DNA of 64,000 bases from Bacteroidota bacterium (GTDB lineage Bacteria; Bacteroidota; Rhodothermia; Balneolales; HLUCCA01). Shown piece by piece: positions 12,546-20,556 of this stretch (position 1 is the first letter of the stretch; the number at the start of each line of letters is the position of its first letter). The translations under genes and the position numbers were made by a program. The notes beneath the pieces were generated by a model that had not been told where the DNA came from, did no database searches, and worked only from the letters and a program-made list of their open reading frames with translations. The DNA is taken from the NCBI GenBank assembly GCA_020832235.1, contig JAFIEZ010000007.1, positions 186,001 to 250,000 on the forward strand, written 5' to 3'.

Positions 12546-13486
12546 GCCAATTTTCGTCGCTTTTCACTCAAAACCCAGTCGGCAAAAAGGTATTCCAGAG
12601 CAGCTGCTTCATACCCTTTCCAGGCAGCAATCATCTTTTGAAACGCCTTCTCACTCGTAGCGTTAGGGTTTCCGCCGTAATTACGGATAATCCAATAACG
12701 CAACCCTCGCTCCTCACCTTTTTCCAGGCGACTTGGAAAAAACGCATCAGGTCGGTTTCGATACAGCATCAGATCTTGTGCGGTGGTAGGACCAAACCCT
12801 CGAATTTTGGTGACGCGCTCATAAAATGCTTCCGGTGGTAAGACCTCCAGCTCATCCATATTCACATTACCCGACATAATTTCATGAGCGAGACCCACCA
12901 CATATTCACCCTTCCGCAATGACAGACCATATTTTTTCATAGATTCAGGGTCTGCACCTATGAGCTGAGCGGGCCTCGGCCAACTAGCTACCGGACCGCC
13001 TTGTCCATCCAGCCGCTGCCCATATCCCTCACGCACGCCATACACCATCTTTCGGGCCGTAGGTTTATGAGAAATCTGCGTTTGAATTACCCGGTTCATG
13101 GCATCCTCGAAGAAATTAGCCCGCGCCATACGCTTGAAACCGTGAAATTCTTGAAATTTCGGGGCCAAAACCGGATCATTCGCCGCCGCTTCATACAGCG
13201 GGTTCAGATCAATATCACATCCCAGAATACGACGGATAGCTGTCGTGGCGGCTTCCTGCTCTTCTCTACTGACGGGATCATGGGCCGAGATGGTAAACTC
13301 AGGGGTCTCCGGATCTCCGTTAAAACGTATGGTCATGAGCACATCTCGTTCGCCAACGGGTATAGGGCGCGTGAATCCCTGCTCAAAAATAAGCATCGGA
13401 TCGTGTTCATGATCGAAATATTGGTCGATATCCAGACACAGGAAAAAATCGTGAGGTGCGATGGATGGTATGGTCCAATGCTGCAT
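12536..13486 (-). CDS. AlkA-like HhH-GPD DNA glycosylase, apparently without the usual catalytic Asp
   Basis: A 316-residue protein with an N-terminal AlkA-like half and a C-terminal HhH-GPD half (about 125-270). The segment RANFFEDAMNRVIQTQISHKPTARKMV is the expected start of the HhH-GPD domain, and IRGFGPTTAQDLMLYR is the helix-hairpin-helix. These enzymes excise alkylated bases such as 3-methyladenine. In AlkA and EndoIII an Asp follows the hairpin at a fixed spacing; here the matching stretch reads PDAFFPSRLEK, which puts Ser/Arg at the catalytic place. The nearby Asp is five residues early. It may be an unusual glycosylase or a DNA-binding relic. It is convergent to the carbinolamine dehydratase gene. 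Confidence 0.75.
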   Translation of the reverse strand: MQHWTIPSIAPHDFFLCLDIDQYFDHEHDPMLIFEQGFTRPIPVGERDVLMTIRFNGDPETPEFTISAHDPVSREEQEAATTAIRRILGCDIDLNPLYEAAANDPVLAPKFQEFHGFKRMARANFFEDAMNRVIQTQISHKPTARKMVYGVREGYGQRLDGQGGPVASWPRPAQLIGADPESMKKYGLSLRKGEYVVGLAHEIMSGNVNMDELEVLPPEAFYERVTKIRGFGPTTAQDLMLYRNRPDAFFPSRLEKGEERGLRYWIIRNYGGNPNATSEKAFQKMIAAWKGYEAAALEYLFADWVLSEKRRKLAKK

Positions 13487-13705: not shown

Positions 13706-14071
13706 TTAATATACATTCAACAGTTTCATGGCCAGAAAGAAGTACACGGAAACAGCAACAGCCAGCCATGGACTGGGTTTGATGGGGATGTATTTCCATC
13801 GCGATAAGGTCGGGAGTACCACGAATAAGAGGAATACGGCCAGCATCAACATCCAGATACCAACCTGGCGAATCAAATAAAGCCGGATCCAATCGTACAC
13901 AACCCCCATCATATTGCCGAATGCCGACCAGCTTTGAAAAGCACGCCCTAGTCGGGACAAAAAGTCCACATCCCACAACAGCAGGTGCAGAAAGAGACCT
14001 ATCAGTATGACAATGGAGTATAAAATAGCTTGCTGACGCTTGAGCATATGAAATCGCTGAGTTTGAATCAT
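13706..14071 (-). CDS. Small membrane protein of unknown function
   Basis: A 121-residue protein with three clear hydrophobic helices (about 15-32, 68-86, 101-117) and basic loops, so likely an inner-membrane protein. I do not recognise a family. A second Met at residue 9, just before KRQQ, is an alternative start. It lies downstream of the DNA ligase on the same strand after a 48-base gap and could be the last gene of that transcript. Confidence 0.55.
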   Translation of the reverse strand: MIQTQRFHMLKRQQAILYSIVILIGLFLHLLLWDVDFLSRLGRAFQSWSAFGNMMGVVYDWIRLYLIRQVGIWMLMLAVFLLFVVLPTLSRWKYIPIKPSPWLAVAVSVYFFLAMKLLNVY

Positions 14072-14119: not shown

Positions 14120-15877
14120 TTACGGGATGCTAAATGCAGCCTGGGGTATGCGCTTTTTGTCAGCTTTTTCGTTGAAAAGGCGTTCTACCTCGGCGAGCGA
14201 GTCGGTTTCGCGCGGAGATTTATCCCATCGAATGGCTCTAAATCGTGGAAATCGCAGCGTGTAACCGGCTTTGGTGCGTTTATTGAGCTGAATTTCATCG
14301 AACTCGATTTCGACCACGATGTGAGGTTCGATGGAGAGGGTTGGGCCAAACCGCTCTCGGACTAGTGGCTTAATTGCTGCATTCAGTTTCTTGAGCTCAT
14401 CGTCGGTATATCCTCCGTAAGCCTTACCGATGGGAACAAAGTCTTGTTCATATCGCTCGTCGTCACTCACCCGAATGCCCAGGGTGAAATCTGAATAAGT
14501 CCCCCCACGCTTTCCGCTGCCGGCTGTGGCATAAAGAATCACAGTGTCCAGTGAGCCGCCGGGTTTCTTAACCTTTAACCACGATTTCTTTCGCTGGCCA
14601 AACTCATACGGACTATCTTTGTGTTTAAGGATGAGTCCTTCATTGCCGTGTGAAAGGGCTCGTTCAAACAGTCGATCGATGTCTTCCTGTGATTGTATGG
14701 TTTCCTGGTCCACCAATGGGATCTGATACTGAGTACACAATGCCTCAAGTATTTGTCGCCTCAGACCAAGGGGCATTTCGAACAATGTTCCGTCGCCATG
14801 AATACGGCCTGCGTTGTCTTCGGCTGATGCAACCTGAGGTTCTGCATAAACCACATCGAAAGCAACGAAAATAACGGGATGTTGCTTCAGCAGTTTTTGG
14901 GATGGTTTCTTAACCCCCATCCGTTTTTGTAACTGCTGAAAAGACTGAATCGTATTCTCCCTGAAAACACAAATTTCGCCGTCGAGTACCGTAGGAGGGA
15001 GGTTTTTACCGGTATAGATTTCAGTAATTTCCGGGAAGGAGGCGCTGATGTCGTTCAGGTCCCGCGAGAACAGCATCACGTTCTCGTGGCTCACATGAAG
15101 CTGACAACGCATTCCGTCGAACTTTTCCTCGGCGATGTAGGCTGAAATATCTTCTGTTGCGCGGGATTCGACCGGGGAGGCCAGCATAAATGCAATAGGC
15201 TGAAACAGGGTGAATCGTGCCTTTTCAAGGGTTCTGTTTCGGGCCATAACCGCCGTTTTCCCCAGGCTTCCGGTGATCATGTGGGTGTAGCGAATGGTTT
15301 CGGCATCGCAGTTAAACGCCTCCGCAATGGCATTCAGAATGCTGCGGGTTTCAAAGCCTATGCGAAGACTTCCTCCACCCAGTACACGCAGGAAATACTT
15401 GATTTCCATAGGGGACAGGTCGCGCCAAACCTCCATCAGAAAGGCCTCTTTATCCTCACGTTTTCGGAGTGCCGCCAGCGTTTCGAAACGTTGCTCTACA
15501 TCGTTAAGACTCAACCGAACATCCACCCTTCGTTTGGTTCGGGCCACGTCGAGATTCTCCATGAGCTTTTCGATGGTTTCGGAGGCGCTGCCGGTGGCGA
15601 TTCTACTGGGACGAAACACCAGCTCGTAGTCGATCTCCAGAAATGTTGCGGCGCAGACAGCGATAGTTCGGTGCCCTATTGCGGCGCGACGTCCGGAAGT
15701 TGTGCTGAAAGCGCCTTCTCCGAGGAAGCCCACGGCCCGGTCAAGGTCAGTATCCTCCGTCAGCGTTTGTAGGTATGCAGCGCACAGGCGAACTTTATCA
15801 GTGGTCCGTCGCGTTTCGGCCAACTCCTGGGCAACCCGTGCAAATTCGTAAAAGTGTGAGGATGTAGACATACACAA
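14120..15877 (-). CDS. ATP-dependent DNA ligase (ligase/exonuclease-associated type)
   Basis: A 585-residue bacterial ATP-dependent ligase that seals nicks via a lysyl-AMP intermediate. It has an N-terminal helical DNA-binding domain (about 1-225, with IKYFLRVLGGGSLRIG), then the adenylation domain with EEKFDGMR placing catalytic Lys252, LDGEICVF (motif III) near 298-304, GLILKHKDSPYEFG and the SWLKVKK motif V, and a C-terminal OB-fold. This layout matches the ligases that pair with a beta-lactamase-fold exonuclease in DNA damage response loci, and such an exonuclease lies 3.3 kb upstream on the same strand. A MacAB-like exporter lies between them. It would supplement NAD-dependent LigA. Confidence 0.9.
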   Translation of the reverse strand: MCMSTSSHFYEFARVAQELAETRRTTDKVRLCAAYLQTLTEDTDLDRAVGFLGEGAFSTTSGRRAAIGHRTIAVCAATFLEIDYELVFRPSRIATGSASETIEKLMENLDVARTKRRVDVRLSLNDVEQRFETLAALRKREDKEAFLMEVWRDLSPMEIKYFLRVLGGGSLRIGFETRSILNAIAEAFNCDAETIRYTHMITGSLGKTAVMARNRTLEKARFTLFQPIAFMLASPVESRATEDISAYIAEEKFDGMRCQLHVSHENVMLFSRDLNDISASFPEITEIYTGKNLPPTVLDGEICVFRENTIQSFQQLQKRMGVKKPSQKLLKQHPVIFVAFDVVYAEPQVASAEDNAGRIHGDGTLFEMPLGLRRQILEALCTQYQIPLVDQETIQSQEDIDRLFERALSHGNEGLILKHKDSPYEFGQRKKSWLKVKKPGGSLDTVILYATAGSGKRGGTYSDFTLGIRVSDDERYEQDFVPIGKAYGGYTDDELKKLNAAIKPLVRERFGPTLSIEPHIVVEIEFDEIQLNKRTKAGYTLRFPRFRAIRWDKSPRETDSLAEVERLFNEKADKKRIPQAAFSIP

Positions 15878-15964
15878 GTATAACCATCAGCAAGTGATAT
15901 TGCGTTTCGCATCAGGGTCTTTCCGTGAAGGGGGAAATACTCCCAAGGCTAAGACGGCACCTTA

Positions 15965-17182
15965 CTATTCCCTTCTGAGCGCTTCAATAGGATCCAGCCG
16001 CGCGGCTTTCCAGGCGGGATAAAACCCGAAGAATAGTCCTACCGCCGCCGATACACTCACGGCCGTAAACATGGCTTCGGTTGAGAACAGCGCCGGCCAG
16101 CCGGCATAGCTGGCAATGAGTTCCGTTGCAATGGCGCCAAGCGCGATGCCGCCAAGTCCGCCGAGCAGACAAAGAATCACCGATTCGATGAGAAACTGAA
16201 GCATTACGTCGCGCCCGCGGGCACCTACCGACAACCGCAGCCCTATTTCGCGGGTACGCTCTGTTACACTCACCAGCATGACATTCATAATTCCAATGCC
16301 GCCCACAAGCAGTGATACCCCCGCGATGGATGCCAGCAGAACGGTCATTACTCTGGATGTTTCCGTGGCTGCCTGAGCAACTTCTTCTTGCGTCTGCACG
16401 GTGAAATCATCTTCCTGGTACGGGGCAAGTCCATGCCTTTCGCGTAGCAGGTCGGTGATTTTAGCCTGGGCTATTTCCATACTTTGCTGATTGAAAACCT
16501 GCACATTAATGACCATGGCGTGTGAGCGACCCGATATCCGCTGAAACGCCGTGGTGTAGGGTACCAGTACGATGTCGTCTTGAACCGAGCCCATGAGCGA
16601 CATCCCTTTCGGTGCAAGCACACCAATTACAGTAAGAGGAAGCCCGCGTACGCGGATGGTTTCTCCAATAGGGTCGGCTCCCTCAAAGAGCTCATCCACA
16701 ATGGTCTGACCAACAACGGCAACCAGCGCTGCTCGCTCAACGTCTTCCTCGGTGTACATTTCGCCGCTTTCAATAGGCCATTGCCTGATTTGCAGATAAT
16801 CGGCCGACTGACCGTAAATGCGCGTGAACCAGTTACGGTTCCCATACACAAGTACGCGTTGAGATCGTACTTCCGGACTGGCCGCGATTACTTCCGGGAT
16901 TTCATCACGGATGGCGTGTGCGTCTTCAACGGTTAGGGTGTTGGCGCTGCCTCCTCCAATGCTGACCCCACCCAGTTGCCGGGCACCGGGGAAAACCAAT
17001 ACCACATTCTGACCAAGCCGGTTAACCTGTTCTTCAACCTCCGACTTGGCACCTTGTCCCAGCCCGACCATGGTAATCACCGCCGCCACACCAATGATGA
17101 TTCCTAAGGCCGTGAGCAATGTTCGCATGGTATTGCGGCGCAGTGCTTTAATTGCAGTTATCGGAACAGCAGATAGTTTCAT
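15965..17182 (-). CDS. MacB-like ABC transporter permease (FtsX fold)
   Basis: A 405-residue inner-membrane protein with one N-terminal helix (about 20-40), a large periplasmic MacB-PCD domain (about 45-275) and three C-terminal FtsX helices. Typical markers are RTLLTALGIIIGVAAVI at the start, GIMNVMLVSVTERTREIGLR before the second helix, and LDPIEALR at the end. It works as a mechanotransmission protein that drives a periplasmic adaptor and TolC-like channel. Its start overlaps the stop of the ATPase gene by four bases. Here permease and ATPase are separate polypeptides, unlike E. coli MacB. Substrate is unknown. Confidence 0.93.
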   Translation of the reverse strand: MKLSAVPITAIKALRRNTMRTLLTALGIIIGVAAVITMVGLGQGAKSEVEEQVNRLGQNVVLVFPGARQLGGVSIGGGSANTLTVEDAHAIRDEIPEVIAASPEVRSQRVLVYGNRNWFTRIYGQSADYLQIRQWPIESGEMYTEEDVERAALVAVVGQTIVDELFEGADPIGETIRVRGLPLTVIGVLAPKGMSLMGSVQDDIVLVPYTTAFQRISGRSHAMVINVQVFNQQSMEIAQAKITDLLRERHGLAPYQEDDFTVQTQEEVAQAATETSRVMTVLLASIAGVSLLVGGIGIMNVMLVSVTERTREIGLRLSVGARGRDVMLQFLIESVILCLLGGLGGIALGAIATELIASYAGWPALFSTEAMFTAVSVSAAVGLFFGFYPAWKAARLDPIEALRRE

Positions 17183-17925
17183 GATAAGCTCTCCGATTCG
17201 TCTTTCCAGGTTTGCAGTTCCGAGGCAGCAGAACGCTTCTGCACCTGCTTGTCGGTTTGTATAAGCCCATCGCGCAGGATGATGATACGATTGGCGAATT
17301 GGGCAATATCCGGCTCTTGCGTTACCATCAGTATAGATAATCCCTCATCATTGAGCCGTTGAAACAGCTCAATAATTTCAAGACTGGTACGGCTGTCAAG
17401 GTTCCCGGTTGGTTCGTCTGCGAGAAGTAGTTTCGGACTGGTAACCAGCGCCCGGGCAATGGCCACGCGTTGCTGCTGACCGCCCGATAGTTGAGAGGGG
17501 GTATGATCCATTCGGTCGGCCAGCCCTACAATTTCGAGAGCTTCTGCAGCTTTCTGGCGTATTTCTTTCCAGCTTAGCGGGTCGCGTTTGTAGAGCAACG
17601 GGAGTTCCATATTTTCGAGGGCAGAGGTGCGCGGCAGCAGGTGAAAGTTCTGAAATACGAATCCTATGGTTTCGTTACGAATCGCTGCCAATTCGTCACG
17701 TTTGAGTGCGGAGATGTCGGTCCCGTTTAGCAGATAGCGGCCTTCGGTTGGCTTGTCGAGACAGCCCAAAATGTTCATCAAAGTCGACTTCCCACTGCCA
17801 GATGAACCCATAATTGATACGAAGTTGCCTGCCTGTAATGTGAAATCGATGCCGCGCAGGGCATGAACCGCTACGCTGCCGGAGGTGTAGGTTCGGGTAA
17901 TATGCTGCAGGTCGATTACAGCCAT
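17179..17925 (-). CDS. MacB/LolD-like ABC transporter ATPase
   Basis: A ~248-residue nucleotide-binding subunit for the adjacent permease. Walker A is GSSGSGKST, the signature LSGGQQQR, Walker B LLLADEPTGNLD, followed by a switch with Gln in place of the usual His (VTQEPDIAQF instead of VTHD), which is unusual. I placed the start at MAVIDLQHI, one base after the adaptor stop, because the upstream in-frame stretch would overlap the adaptor and lies outside the family's usual N-terminus. A Gln at the H-loop would slow hydrolysis, so its activity is worth noting. Same operon as adaptor and permease. Confidence 0.92.
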   Translation of the reverse strand: MAVIDLQHITRTYTSGSVAVHALRGIDFTLQAGNFVSIMGSSGSGKSTLMNILGCLDKPTEGRYLLNGTDISALKRDELAAIRNETIGFVFQNFHLLPRTSALENMELPLLYKRDPLSWKEIRQKAAEALEIVGLADRMDHTPSQLSGGQQQRVAIARALVTSPKLLLADEPTGNLDSRTSLEIIELFQRLNDEGLSILMVTQEPDIAQFANRIIILRDGLIQTDKQVQKRSAASELQTWKDESESLS

Positions 17926-17926
17926 G

Positions 17927-19072
17927 TTAAAATGTTGCCCGGTTACCGCCGAAAAGTCCGCCTCCATTGCTTCCACTGCCCGATTGTGTGAGTGAGAGTC
18001 CTACGGCGAGGGTATCGCTGGCCGTAATACCGCTGATGATTTCAGTGTTGACTCCATCCGAGAGACCGGTGCGAACGGGCGTTGAAATCAGGCTATTCCC
18101 GCGTTTAACGTACACTCTTCCGTTGTATCCATCGGGTAAATCAGCGTCATCCGGACGAAGTCCGTCGGGTAAGCGTGCCCGCAGTGCGGTGTTTCGTACA
18201 CGAAGTACATCGACGACTTCAGCGGTCATACCGGGTTTGAGCAGCAGGTCGCTGTTATCAACAGCAATGATGGTCTCGTAGTGAACTACATTATCCATAA
18301 TCAGGGGATTATTTCGAACCTGAATCACCTCACCCTTGAATGTTCGGTTGCGATGAGCATCTACACGAAATCGTACAAGCTGACCGTCCTGAACTTCGCC
18401 AATATCGGCTTCCGAAACGTTGGCGTGAATGAACATCTGCCGGAGATCTGTAGCCAGATTGAACAGTTCCGGAGCACTCAGACTCGCCGCTACAGTCTGA
18501 CCTACATCCACATTCCGGGAGATTACAATGCCGTCGGTGGGCGCGATGATGGTGCAACGGTCGAGTTCCCGCTGAGCGCGTTCCAGTGCCTGTTTACGTA
18601 CTTCCAGCTGGGCTTCGGCCTGTAACAGCGTTGCCCGTGCCTGTTCTACTTCGCTGGGTGCAATAAATTGTCTTTCCCGTAGTTCAAATACCCGATTGTA
18701 CTGTACCTGAGCCAGTTCAAGTCCTGCTTCAGCCGACTGCAGCTCGGCACGTGCAGAACTTACCGCCGCTTCAAACGTGGAGGGATCGATCAGGGCCAGA
18801 ACTTGTCCGCGGCGCACCACGTCGTTAAAATCTACTCGTATCTCTTCGATAATTCCTGAAACCTGACTGCCCACAGTCACCATTTGAATAGGCTGAAGGC
18901 TGCCAAAAGCCACAATGCGTGATGATACGTCACCACGATCGGCAACTACCGTGTGCATGGGTGGCAATGCGCTGGCCGAAGTGCTCCTGGCATCCAGATA
19001 ATACCAGGCTCCGACGCCCATAGCCAGCAAAATGACAAGGTATATAATTGGTTTGGTAAGTTTTTTCATCAT
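17927..19072 (-). CDS. MacA/HlyD-type periplasmic adaptor protein
   Basis: A 381-residue membrane-fusion protein with an N-terminal anchor helix (about 7-26), a barrel-sandwich/lipoyl domain (VGSQVSGIIEEIRVDFNDVVRRGQVLALID), a long alpha-hairpin (about 100-170, Gln/Glu/Arg-rich) and a beta-barrel with the second lipoyl half (GIVISRNVDVGQTV). It links the MacB-like pump to an outer-membrane channel. It heads the three-gene exporter unit; a TolC-like gene is not in the window. The C-terminus ends in a Gly/Ser-rich stretch. Confidence 0.93.
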   Translation of the reverse strand: MMKKLTKPIIYLVILLAMGVGAWYYLDARSTSASALPPMHTVVADRGDVSSRIVAFGSLQPIQMVTVGSQVSGIIEEIRVDFNDVVRRGQVLALIDPSTFEAAVSSARAELQSAEAGLELAQVQYNRVFELRERQFIAPSEVEQARATLLQAEAQLEVRKQALERAQRELDRCTIIAPTDGIVISRNVDVGQTVAASLSAPELFNLATDLRQMFIHANVSEADIGEVQDGQLVRFRVDAHRNRTFKGEVIQVRNNPLIMDNVVHYETIIAVDNSDLLLKPGMTAEVVDVLRVRNTALRARLPDGLRPDDADLPDGYNGRVYVKRGNSLISTPVRTGLSDGVNTEIISGITASDTLAVGLSLTQSGSGSNGGGLFGGNRATF

Positions 19073-19142
19073 ATCAATCTACACACTTACAATGTTTAGA
19101 GTTGTAAAGGCATGTTTATTAAAATGATTTCGGGCACAGGTA

Positions 19143-20132
19143 TTATGCCTCGTCGTTTCCGGCTATATCCAGACTTTCTGCTATAAGTCCGGCCTGTTGC
19201 AAGTAATGAATGACTACATCGGCATTGGGTGTGTGTGTGATATATACTTTTTTTGGGTTTAGCTTTTTGCATAAATCAATCAGCTCAAAAAAGTCGATAT
19301 GGTCAGACAGGGGAATGAGTTTATCAACGATAATCTGCGACCGCCGCGACTCCAGCGATGCCCACCCACTGCAATAGGCAATACGTTTTTTGCGGATGGA
19401 GGTAACCATACTGGTATCTAGTGTGCTCAAAGGCGTAATGAGCGCGCCCTCAGCTACAGTCTTTCGATTATACCGGCTAAAATTACCCAAGTTCATCCCG
19501 TATCGCGTGTATATTTCACAAAGCGGGTAGCCTGCGCCGTGAATTTGAACCGGGATGCCGGTAGGTTCCAGCGCCATCATAACCTCCTGTGCCTTGCCCA
19601 GGTTGTAAGTCAAAAAGATGGGTACATCTCCGCTAGCTCTGGAATCTTCAGCAAACGTACGAATCATGTTAAAGAGCACATCGTGCGATTTCCATCGATA
19701 AACAGGCAACGAAAACGTAGCCTCAGTGATGAAATAGTCGACATCAGTCGGACAATCAAACCCTTCTGTGCACGGCGACGGTGGAGTGCGATAATCTCCA
19801 GTGTACAACACATTGCCTTCGGGAGTTTGTAAGTAGGTCATGGCAGAACCCAGGATGTGTCCGGCAGGATAAAATGTGACAGTAACTTTTTCGTTCAGAA
19901 CGACGGGTTCATGAAAGGGAAGCAGGGTTATCTTACCGCTGAATCCTCGTGCTTTCATAAGATCTGCGGTGGGCGGTGTGGCGAAAACCGGTATTCGCCG
20001 ATTTCTTGGAACATGATCGGCATGAGCATGCGAAATGAAGATGTGTGTGGCATCAGGCTGGTCGATGTCTAATCCAACATCGAAATCCGGCAGTAAAATG
20101 CCACCGTATCCGTGTTTTTGAATGCGTATCAT
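19143..20132 (-). CDS. Ligase-associated DNA exonuclease (metallo-beta-lactamase/beta-CASP fold)
   Basis: A 329-residue metallo-beta-lactamase-fold nuclease related to mRNA 3'-end processing factors. The zinc motif HAHADH lies at about 35-40, with AGHILGSAMTYL and YTGDYRTPPSP (Asp ligand) next and a C-terminal THTPNADVVIHYL supplying the last His. Short beta-CASP proteins of this kind are encoded with ATP-dependent ligases in bacterial DNA damage response loci, where they trim DNA ends. The ligase here is downstream on the same strand, behind the exporter genes. The helicase and PdeM-type phosphoesterase that often accompany them are not visible in the window. Confidence 0.85.
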   Translation of the reverse strand: MIRIQKHGYGGILLPDFDVGLDIDQPDATHIFISHAHADHVPRNRRIPVFATPPTADLMKARGFSGKITLLPFHEPVVLNEKVTVTFYPAGHILGSAMTYLQTPEGNVLYTGDYRTPPSPCTEGFDCPTDVDYFITEATFSLPVYRWKSHDVLFNMIRTFAEDSRASGDVPIFLTYNLGKAQEVMMALEPTGIPVQIHGAGYPLCEIYTRYGMNLGNFSRYNRKTVAEGALITPLSTLDTSMVTSIRKKRIAYCSGWASLESRRSQIIVDKLIPLSDHIDFFELIDLCKKLNPKKVYITHTPNADVVIHYLQQAGLIAESLDIAGNDEA

Positions 20133-20136
20133 GGTA

Positions 20137-20556
20137 CTAATTTGTTCCGGAAATTATCCGAAACCACAGTATCAAACTCACCATTCCGACTCCACTAAGC
20201 AGCCAGCCTGTTTTAACCATCATCCGCCGCAGGCTTTGCTCTTTTTGCTGAAGCGCACCGCGAACCGAGTCCCACATCAGTAACAGGCGACCCGCAGCGA
20301 AGATGAGCCCGAGCATAACAACTGAAAACAAAAGTTCCGACAGGGCAAGAGGGTAGATAGATAGCACTGCGGAGATAAAGGTGAACATCAAGGCGTATCG
20401 TAATATTTTCAAAAGAAGTCGTGGCGGGCTGGAAGATGCTGCCGATGTAATCAAATAAGCGGCAGGGATACCAGGCTGTCGAATAAATCCGGTACCGTAC
20501 CATATACAGAACACCATCAGAACGAAATAGTAAATTAGGAACCAACCGTACTGCAT
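20137..20556 (-). CDS. Membrane protein of unknown function
   Basis: A 139-residue protein with four hydrophobic segments (about 4-20, 45-65, 68-88, 112-132) and a basic cytoplasmic loop (QQKEQSLRRMMVK). I recognise no family. It is packed between tatD (two-base gap) and the exonuclease (four-base gap), so it belongs to the same transcript. Position alone does not show a DNA-repair role. Confidence 0.6.
   Translation of the reverse strand: MQYGWFLIYYFVLMVFCIWYGTGFIRQPGIPAAYLITSAASSSPPRLLLKILRYALMFTFISAVLSIYPLALSELLFSVVMLGLIFAAGRLLLMWDSVRGALQQKEQSLRRMMVKTGWLLSGVGMVSLILWFRIISGTN

Follow-up and report, generated by a model that had tools for sequence, protein, structure and literature searches.

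The catalytic aspartate downstream of the hairpin is treated as a hallmark of the HhH-GPD superfamily of DNA glycosylases. AlkA carries this residue (Asp238) together with Trp218 and Tyr222 in its base pocket, and the bifunctional lyases OGG and Nth feature a lysine in the hairpin. The hOGG1 variants D268E and D268Q are described as active and D268N as inactive, in a review that favours stabilisation of charge as the mechanism rather than acid-base catalysis (PMC4207560). The crenarchaeal Sis-HhH-GPD of Saccharolobus, with serine at the aspartate position, is reported to rely on a hairpin glutamate (PMC11754123). In AGOG a longer linker is described ahead of the catalytic helix (PMC3397491).

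A four-gene operon coding for Lhr, a phosphoesterase, an exonuclease and a ligase was also described; its function and the lesions it acts on are said not to be currently known, and the four genes described there do not include a glycosylase (PMC10140301). A different ligase, LigC, is reported to act alongside glycosylases during base excision repair in mycobacteria (PMC5663958). Literature searches returned no work on glycosylases in Balneolales and none on a helix-hairpin-helix DNA glycosylase with a catalytic glutamate, which does not prove their absence in print.

The window analysed here is a stretch of 64,000 nucleotides from a Bacteroidota genome (contig JAFIEZ010000007.1). On balance, one of its genes appears to code for an order-specific AlkA-like, probably monofunctional glycosylase in which an invariant glutamate, Glu259, replaces the catalytic aspartate behind an insertion of 5-6 residues (Table 1).

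Table 1. Position of the glycosylase gene, of its relevant residues and of linked genes in the window.
Feature	Position	Strand	Basis
AlkA-like DNA glycosylase homologue, 316 aa	12536..13486	-	ORF list, profile/PDB searches, predicted model
Glu259, proposed catalytic carboxylate	12710..12712	-	alignments, family count
Residues 254-259, order-specific extra loop (strands 254-255 and 258-259 in the model)	12710..12727	-	
Ser252-Arg253, residues singled out in the initial annotation	12728..12733	-	family count
Asp247 (PDAFF), not catalytic by its variation	12746..12748	-	family count
Hairpin; Thr234 occupies the column of the OGG/Nth Lys and of AlkA Trp218	12764..12799	-	model, alignments, family count
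Small ORF flanked by the ligase and glycosylase genes	13706..14071	-	no NCBIfam match
ATP-dependent DNA ligase, TIGR04120-like, under cut-off	14120..15877	-	profile match
MBL-fold exonuclease, TIGR04122-like, under cut-off	19143..20132	-	profile match

An AlkA-fold family of the Balneolales

The best PDB matches of the protein found by phmmer are 2h56 (6e-10) and Archaeoglobus AlkA (8.7e-10), and the family profile matches the latter at 9.5e-16. Its AF2 model, built from 36 sequences, has a mean pLDDT of 94.5 and a pTM of 0.91. The closest structure is AlkA 3ogd_A (Z 25.9, rmsd 2.8, 275 residues). AlkA structures from E. coli and Archaeoglobus (1mpg, 3ogd, 2jhj) share the fold over most of their length (Z 23.8-25.9) at about 20% sequence identity, while OGG1 and bacterial OGG share the overall fold and rank below AlkA (Z about 22). 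The 3ogd_A match and the hairpin GxGPTTAQ identify the HhH-GPD superfamily fold, and the hairpin and an N-terminal PPxD segment are common to AlkA and the family. Scores stay under the cut-offs of PF00730 (14.4 bits, curated value 26.2) and of the AlkA equivalog NF007641 (33.8 bits, cut-off 229).

The family is conserved across one bacterial order. Among 40 near genomes, a set made up of the window's genome and those closest to it, 39 have matches at E <= 0.001, two of them C-terminal fragments only. In a sample of the phylum, 109 of 394 genomes match at E <= 1e-6: those of the same order (50 of 52) all score at least 508 bits and those outside it (59 of 342) at most 97 bits. Genome searches covered the window's own phylum, complemented by a short-pattern scan of contigs that yielded 11 named loci from Balneolaceae, Rhodothermaceae-labelled and Fodinibius/Aliifodinibius records. 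No relative was detected in viral contigs with alignment A1 or E. coli AlkA as query, and 14 plasmid records match at 20.8-29.1% identity. Scanning of 154 loci gave 87 family ORFs, which reduce to 72 distinct sequences. L010 ends before the segment after the hairpin, and the counts given below therefore refer to 71 sequences.

Several family members of the near genomes are split by an insertion. In L109-L114 (genomes G008, G014, G017, G020, G023 and G029) residue 209 is followed by some tens of additional residues of low complexity. Genome G036 has two matches of equal score and identity (C6:18513-19451 and C13:152644-153582), either a duplication or an assembly artefact.

Decay into a pseudogene is ruled out by the open, intact frame and by preservation of the segment in 71 distinct relatives. 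Between the window gene and a copy from the same genus (L013) dN is 0.107 and dS is saturated. The window's genome, 96.81% complete, codes for two other HhH-GPD proteins over the cut-off, one of which, with the segment VDTHVRR, is presumably Nth-like. It also has one AlkD-type protein, whereas PF02245 and PF03352 gave no match. An Asp-type AlkA is additionally present in three genomes of the order (G249, G296 and G308).

The segment between the hairpin and the following helix

The initial annotation of the hairpin IRGFGPTTAQDLMLYR as intact, followed by NRPDAFFPSRLEKGEERGLRYW with the stretch FFPSRLEK and no Asp at the ungapped position, is an accurate reading of the ORF. Its further claim that Ser/Arg occupy the place homologous to the catalytic Asp was not confirmed: the ungapped reading lands in a lineage-specific insertion because the linker of the family is longer than the canonical one, and the invariant Glu259 sits six residues after Arg253. 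The spacing from Pro251 to Glu259 is seven residues in 70 of the 71 sequences and eight in the other, compared to mostly 1-2 residues in the same linker of canonical relatives. The hallmark aspartate is absent from the family segment before the following helix.

Glutamate is found at position 259 in 71/71 distinct sequences, and also in L115, a 72-residue fragment beyond this set. Both glutamate codons are in use (GAA 56, GAG 15), so this invariance goes beyond chance or decay. From the hairpin up to the following helix, Glu259 is the sole family-invariant acid, and the x-G-hydrophobic-R that follows it, whose arginine at 263 is found in all 71 sequences, matches the canonical D-x-G-hydrophobic. 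Position 252 is serine in 67 of 71 sequences and position 253 is N in 50, H in 10, R in three, E and K in two each, and V, T, Q and S in one each. The Pro251 column has alanine in seven.

Alignment with AlkA, proposed initially as a check, placed Glu259 on the catalytic Asp in some comparisons and nearby residues there in others. In a MAFFT set of ten family members, 11 other proteins and the E. coli AlkA sequence, Glu259 falls on Asp238 in four alignment modes. The second Asp of FPADDLGV from Archaeoglobus AlkA also falls on Glu259 in phmmer, and Glu259 is on the catalytic column when the family is aligned by hhalign, globally and locally, with the four proteins of family f20, its best-scoring outgroup. 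The Asp of 2h56, the best phmmer match, falls instead on Glu255, as does Asp238 of a mixed AlkA set (hhalign, global and local), while E. coli AlkA alone puts Asp238 on Leu254 (hhalign). Alignments shown for the family profile against PDB extend no further than position 252 or 253. Since the family tolerates free variation at 254 and 255, the catalytic acid, if it lies within the segment, should be Glu259. Structure prediction, the second check, yielded the AlkA fold with high confidence but has the next helix beginning at 262 and not directly after residue 259. Judged from these comparisons, Glu259 is likely the catalytic carboxylate.

The catalytic column of 61 other AlkA-like proteins (60 of 64 lower-scoring places in the phylum sample, together with L096) has Asp in 59 and Glu in two. 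Both Glu cases, L072 and L096, belong to f20, whose members L071, L072, L073 and L096 read D, E, D and E. L072 and L096 carry their glutamate without the insertion. Proteins of f20 are the best-scoring ones outside the order (97, 96 and 90 bits). A sister relation of f20 to the Glu259 family is not supported by the tree, which has a central split of 89/77, long-branch warnings and an EcAlkA branch of 3.31; descent of the glutamate from a common ancestor is not claimed.

Two suggestions of the initial annotation, that the enzyme uses another residue or that it binds DNA without base excision, can be weighed against these data. The first is favoured by Glu259 being the only invariant acid in the stretch, and the family is probably not one devoid of any catalytic acid. 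The second would have the protein flip or recognise damaged bases and mark them for the repair enzymes linked to it (ligase, nuclease and helicase), with Glu259 playing a structural role. It accords with the lack of an Asp and of the aromatic base-stacking residues of AlkA, and with conservation persisting around the hairpin as in a DNA binder. It is nevertheless unlikely, since 71/71 sequences retain a suitably charged residue exactly before the catalytic helix, which a protein without catalytic activity would have no need to do.

An acid located elsewhere, as in Sis-HhH-GPD, would be an equally unlikely solution. The Saccharolobus protein gives a precedent (PMC11754123) and likewise lacks Asp at the usual position; it features an Fe-S cluster loop. 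The family has other invariant acids, for example Asp13, Asp25, Glu27, Asp48, Glu293 and Glu298, but all are outside the hairpin-to-helix stretch, and the column of the hairpin Glu, that of Thr234, is T in 70/71 and S in 1/71. Asp247 of PDAFF, whose catalytic role would have overturned the initial annotation, is close in sequence and is Asp in 65/71 relatives, but it is ruled out by its variation (Glu in 5/71, Gln in 1/71), and canonical proteins fill the same column (often with D or N) besides having their own catalytic Asp, leaving this residue with a negligible chance of being the catalytic one.

Genes linked to the glycosylase

On the same strand, the glycosylase gene is preceded by the small ORF, the ligase, an ABC-transporter-like block (assigned by inspection only) and the exonuclease. 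L001 and L010 also have the small ORF upstream of their glycosylase gene. The ligase reaches 345.8 against NF006701 and 330.8 against TIGR04120 (cut-off 400), under the cut-off in both cases, and the exonuclease scores 208.5 with TIGR04122 (cut-off 325). A helicase (1068.4, cut-off 850) and a phosphoesterase (194.7, cut-off 150) exceed theirs. All four components of the TIGR04120-04123 set are thus in the genome, not all four models being over their cut-offs.

The described set forms one operon (PMC10140301), while the genome of the window has it in two places. Helicase and phosphoesterase are adjacent at G000 C13:37585-40639, on the contig of the window but away from the glycosylase gene, and exonuclease and ligase lie at 14120-20132 of the window. 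A small hydrophobic ORF is found directly upstream of the exonuclease both in the window (20137-20556, no NCBIfam match) and in L009 (2672-3100).

The ligase gene adjoins that of the glycosylase in seven of the 11 named loci (L004, L006-L011); it was not found beside it in L002, L003 and L005, and the sequence of L001 ends early. Exonuclease and glycosylase both have matches in 33 genomes, on one contig in 18 and on different contigs in 15. In all 18 one-contig cases the exonuclease gene lies upstream of the glycosylase gene and shares its strand; the distance is at most 3.1 kb in 11, at most 25 kb in 17 and 1.5 Mb in the remaining one. This gene order suggests that the glycosylase cooperates with the exonuclease and the ligase.

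Proposed activity and significance

The best reading of the family is a Glu-type AlkA-like glycosylase linked to the ligase-associated repair set. AlkA has its Asp where the family has Glu behind a longer linker, and the carboxylate of Glu259 would be placed where Asp238 lies in AlkA. It could stabilise the positive charge of the sugar while the damaged base departs. An abasic site would be left, Thr234 standing in for the lysine of the lyases, and the linked exonuclease and ligase may help to finish the repair. By alignment, Trp218 and Tyr222 of AlkA correspond to Thr234 and to residue 238 (Asp 59, Gln 12), so the substrate is not predictable. It is conceivable, if rather doubtful, that this Glu-type HhH-GPD branch, fixed across the order, is the lesion-finder of the Lhr/phosphoesterase/exonuclease/ligase set, with a target base that is not one of the usual alkyl-purines.

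If true, a Glu version that spans the order and has its loop rebuilt would be nature's equivalent of the engineered hOGG1 D268E, and would indicate the extent to which the carboxylate can be shifted. Linkage of the genes also offers a way to approach the ligase-associated repair set, which would gain a testable lesion if the glycosylase is indeed its lesion-finder.
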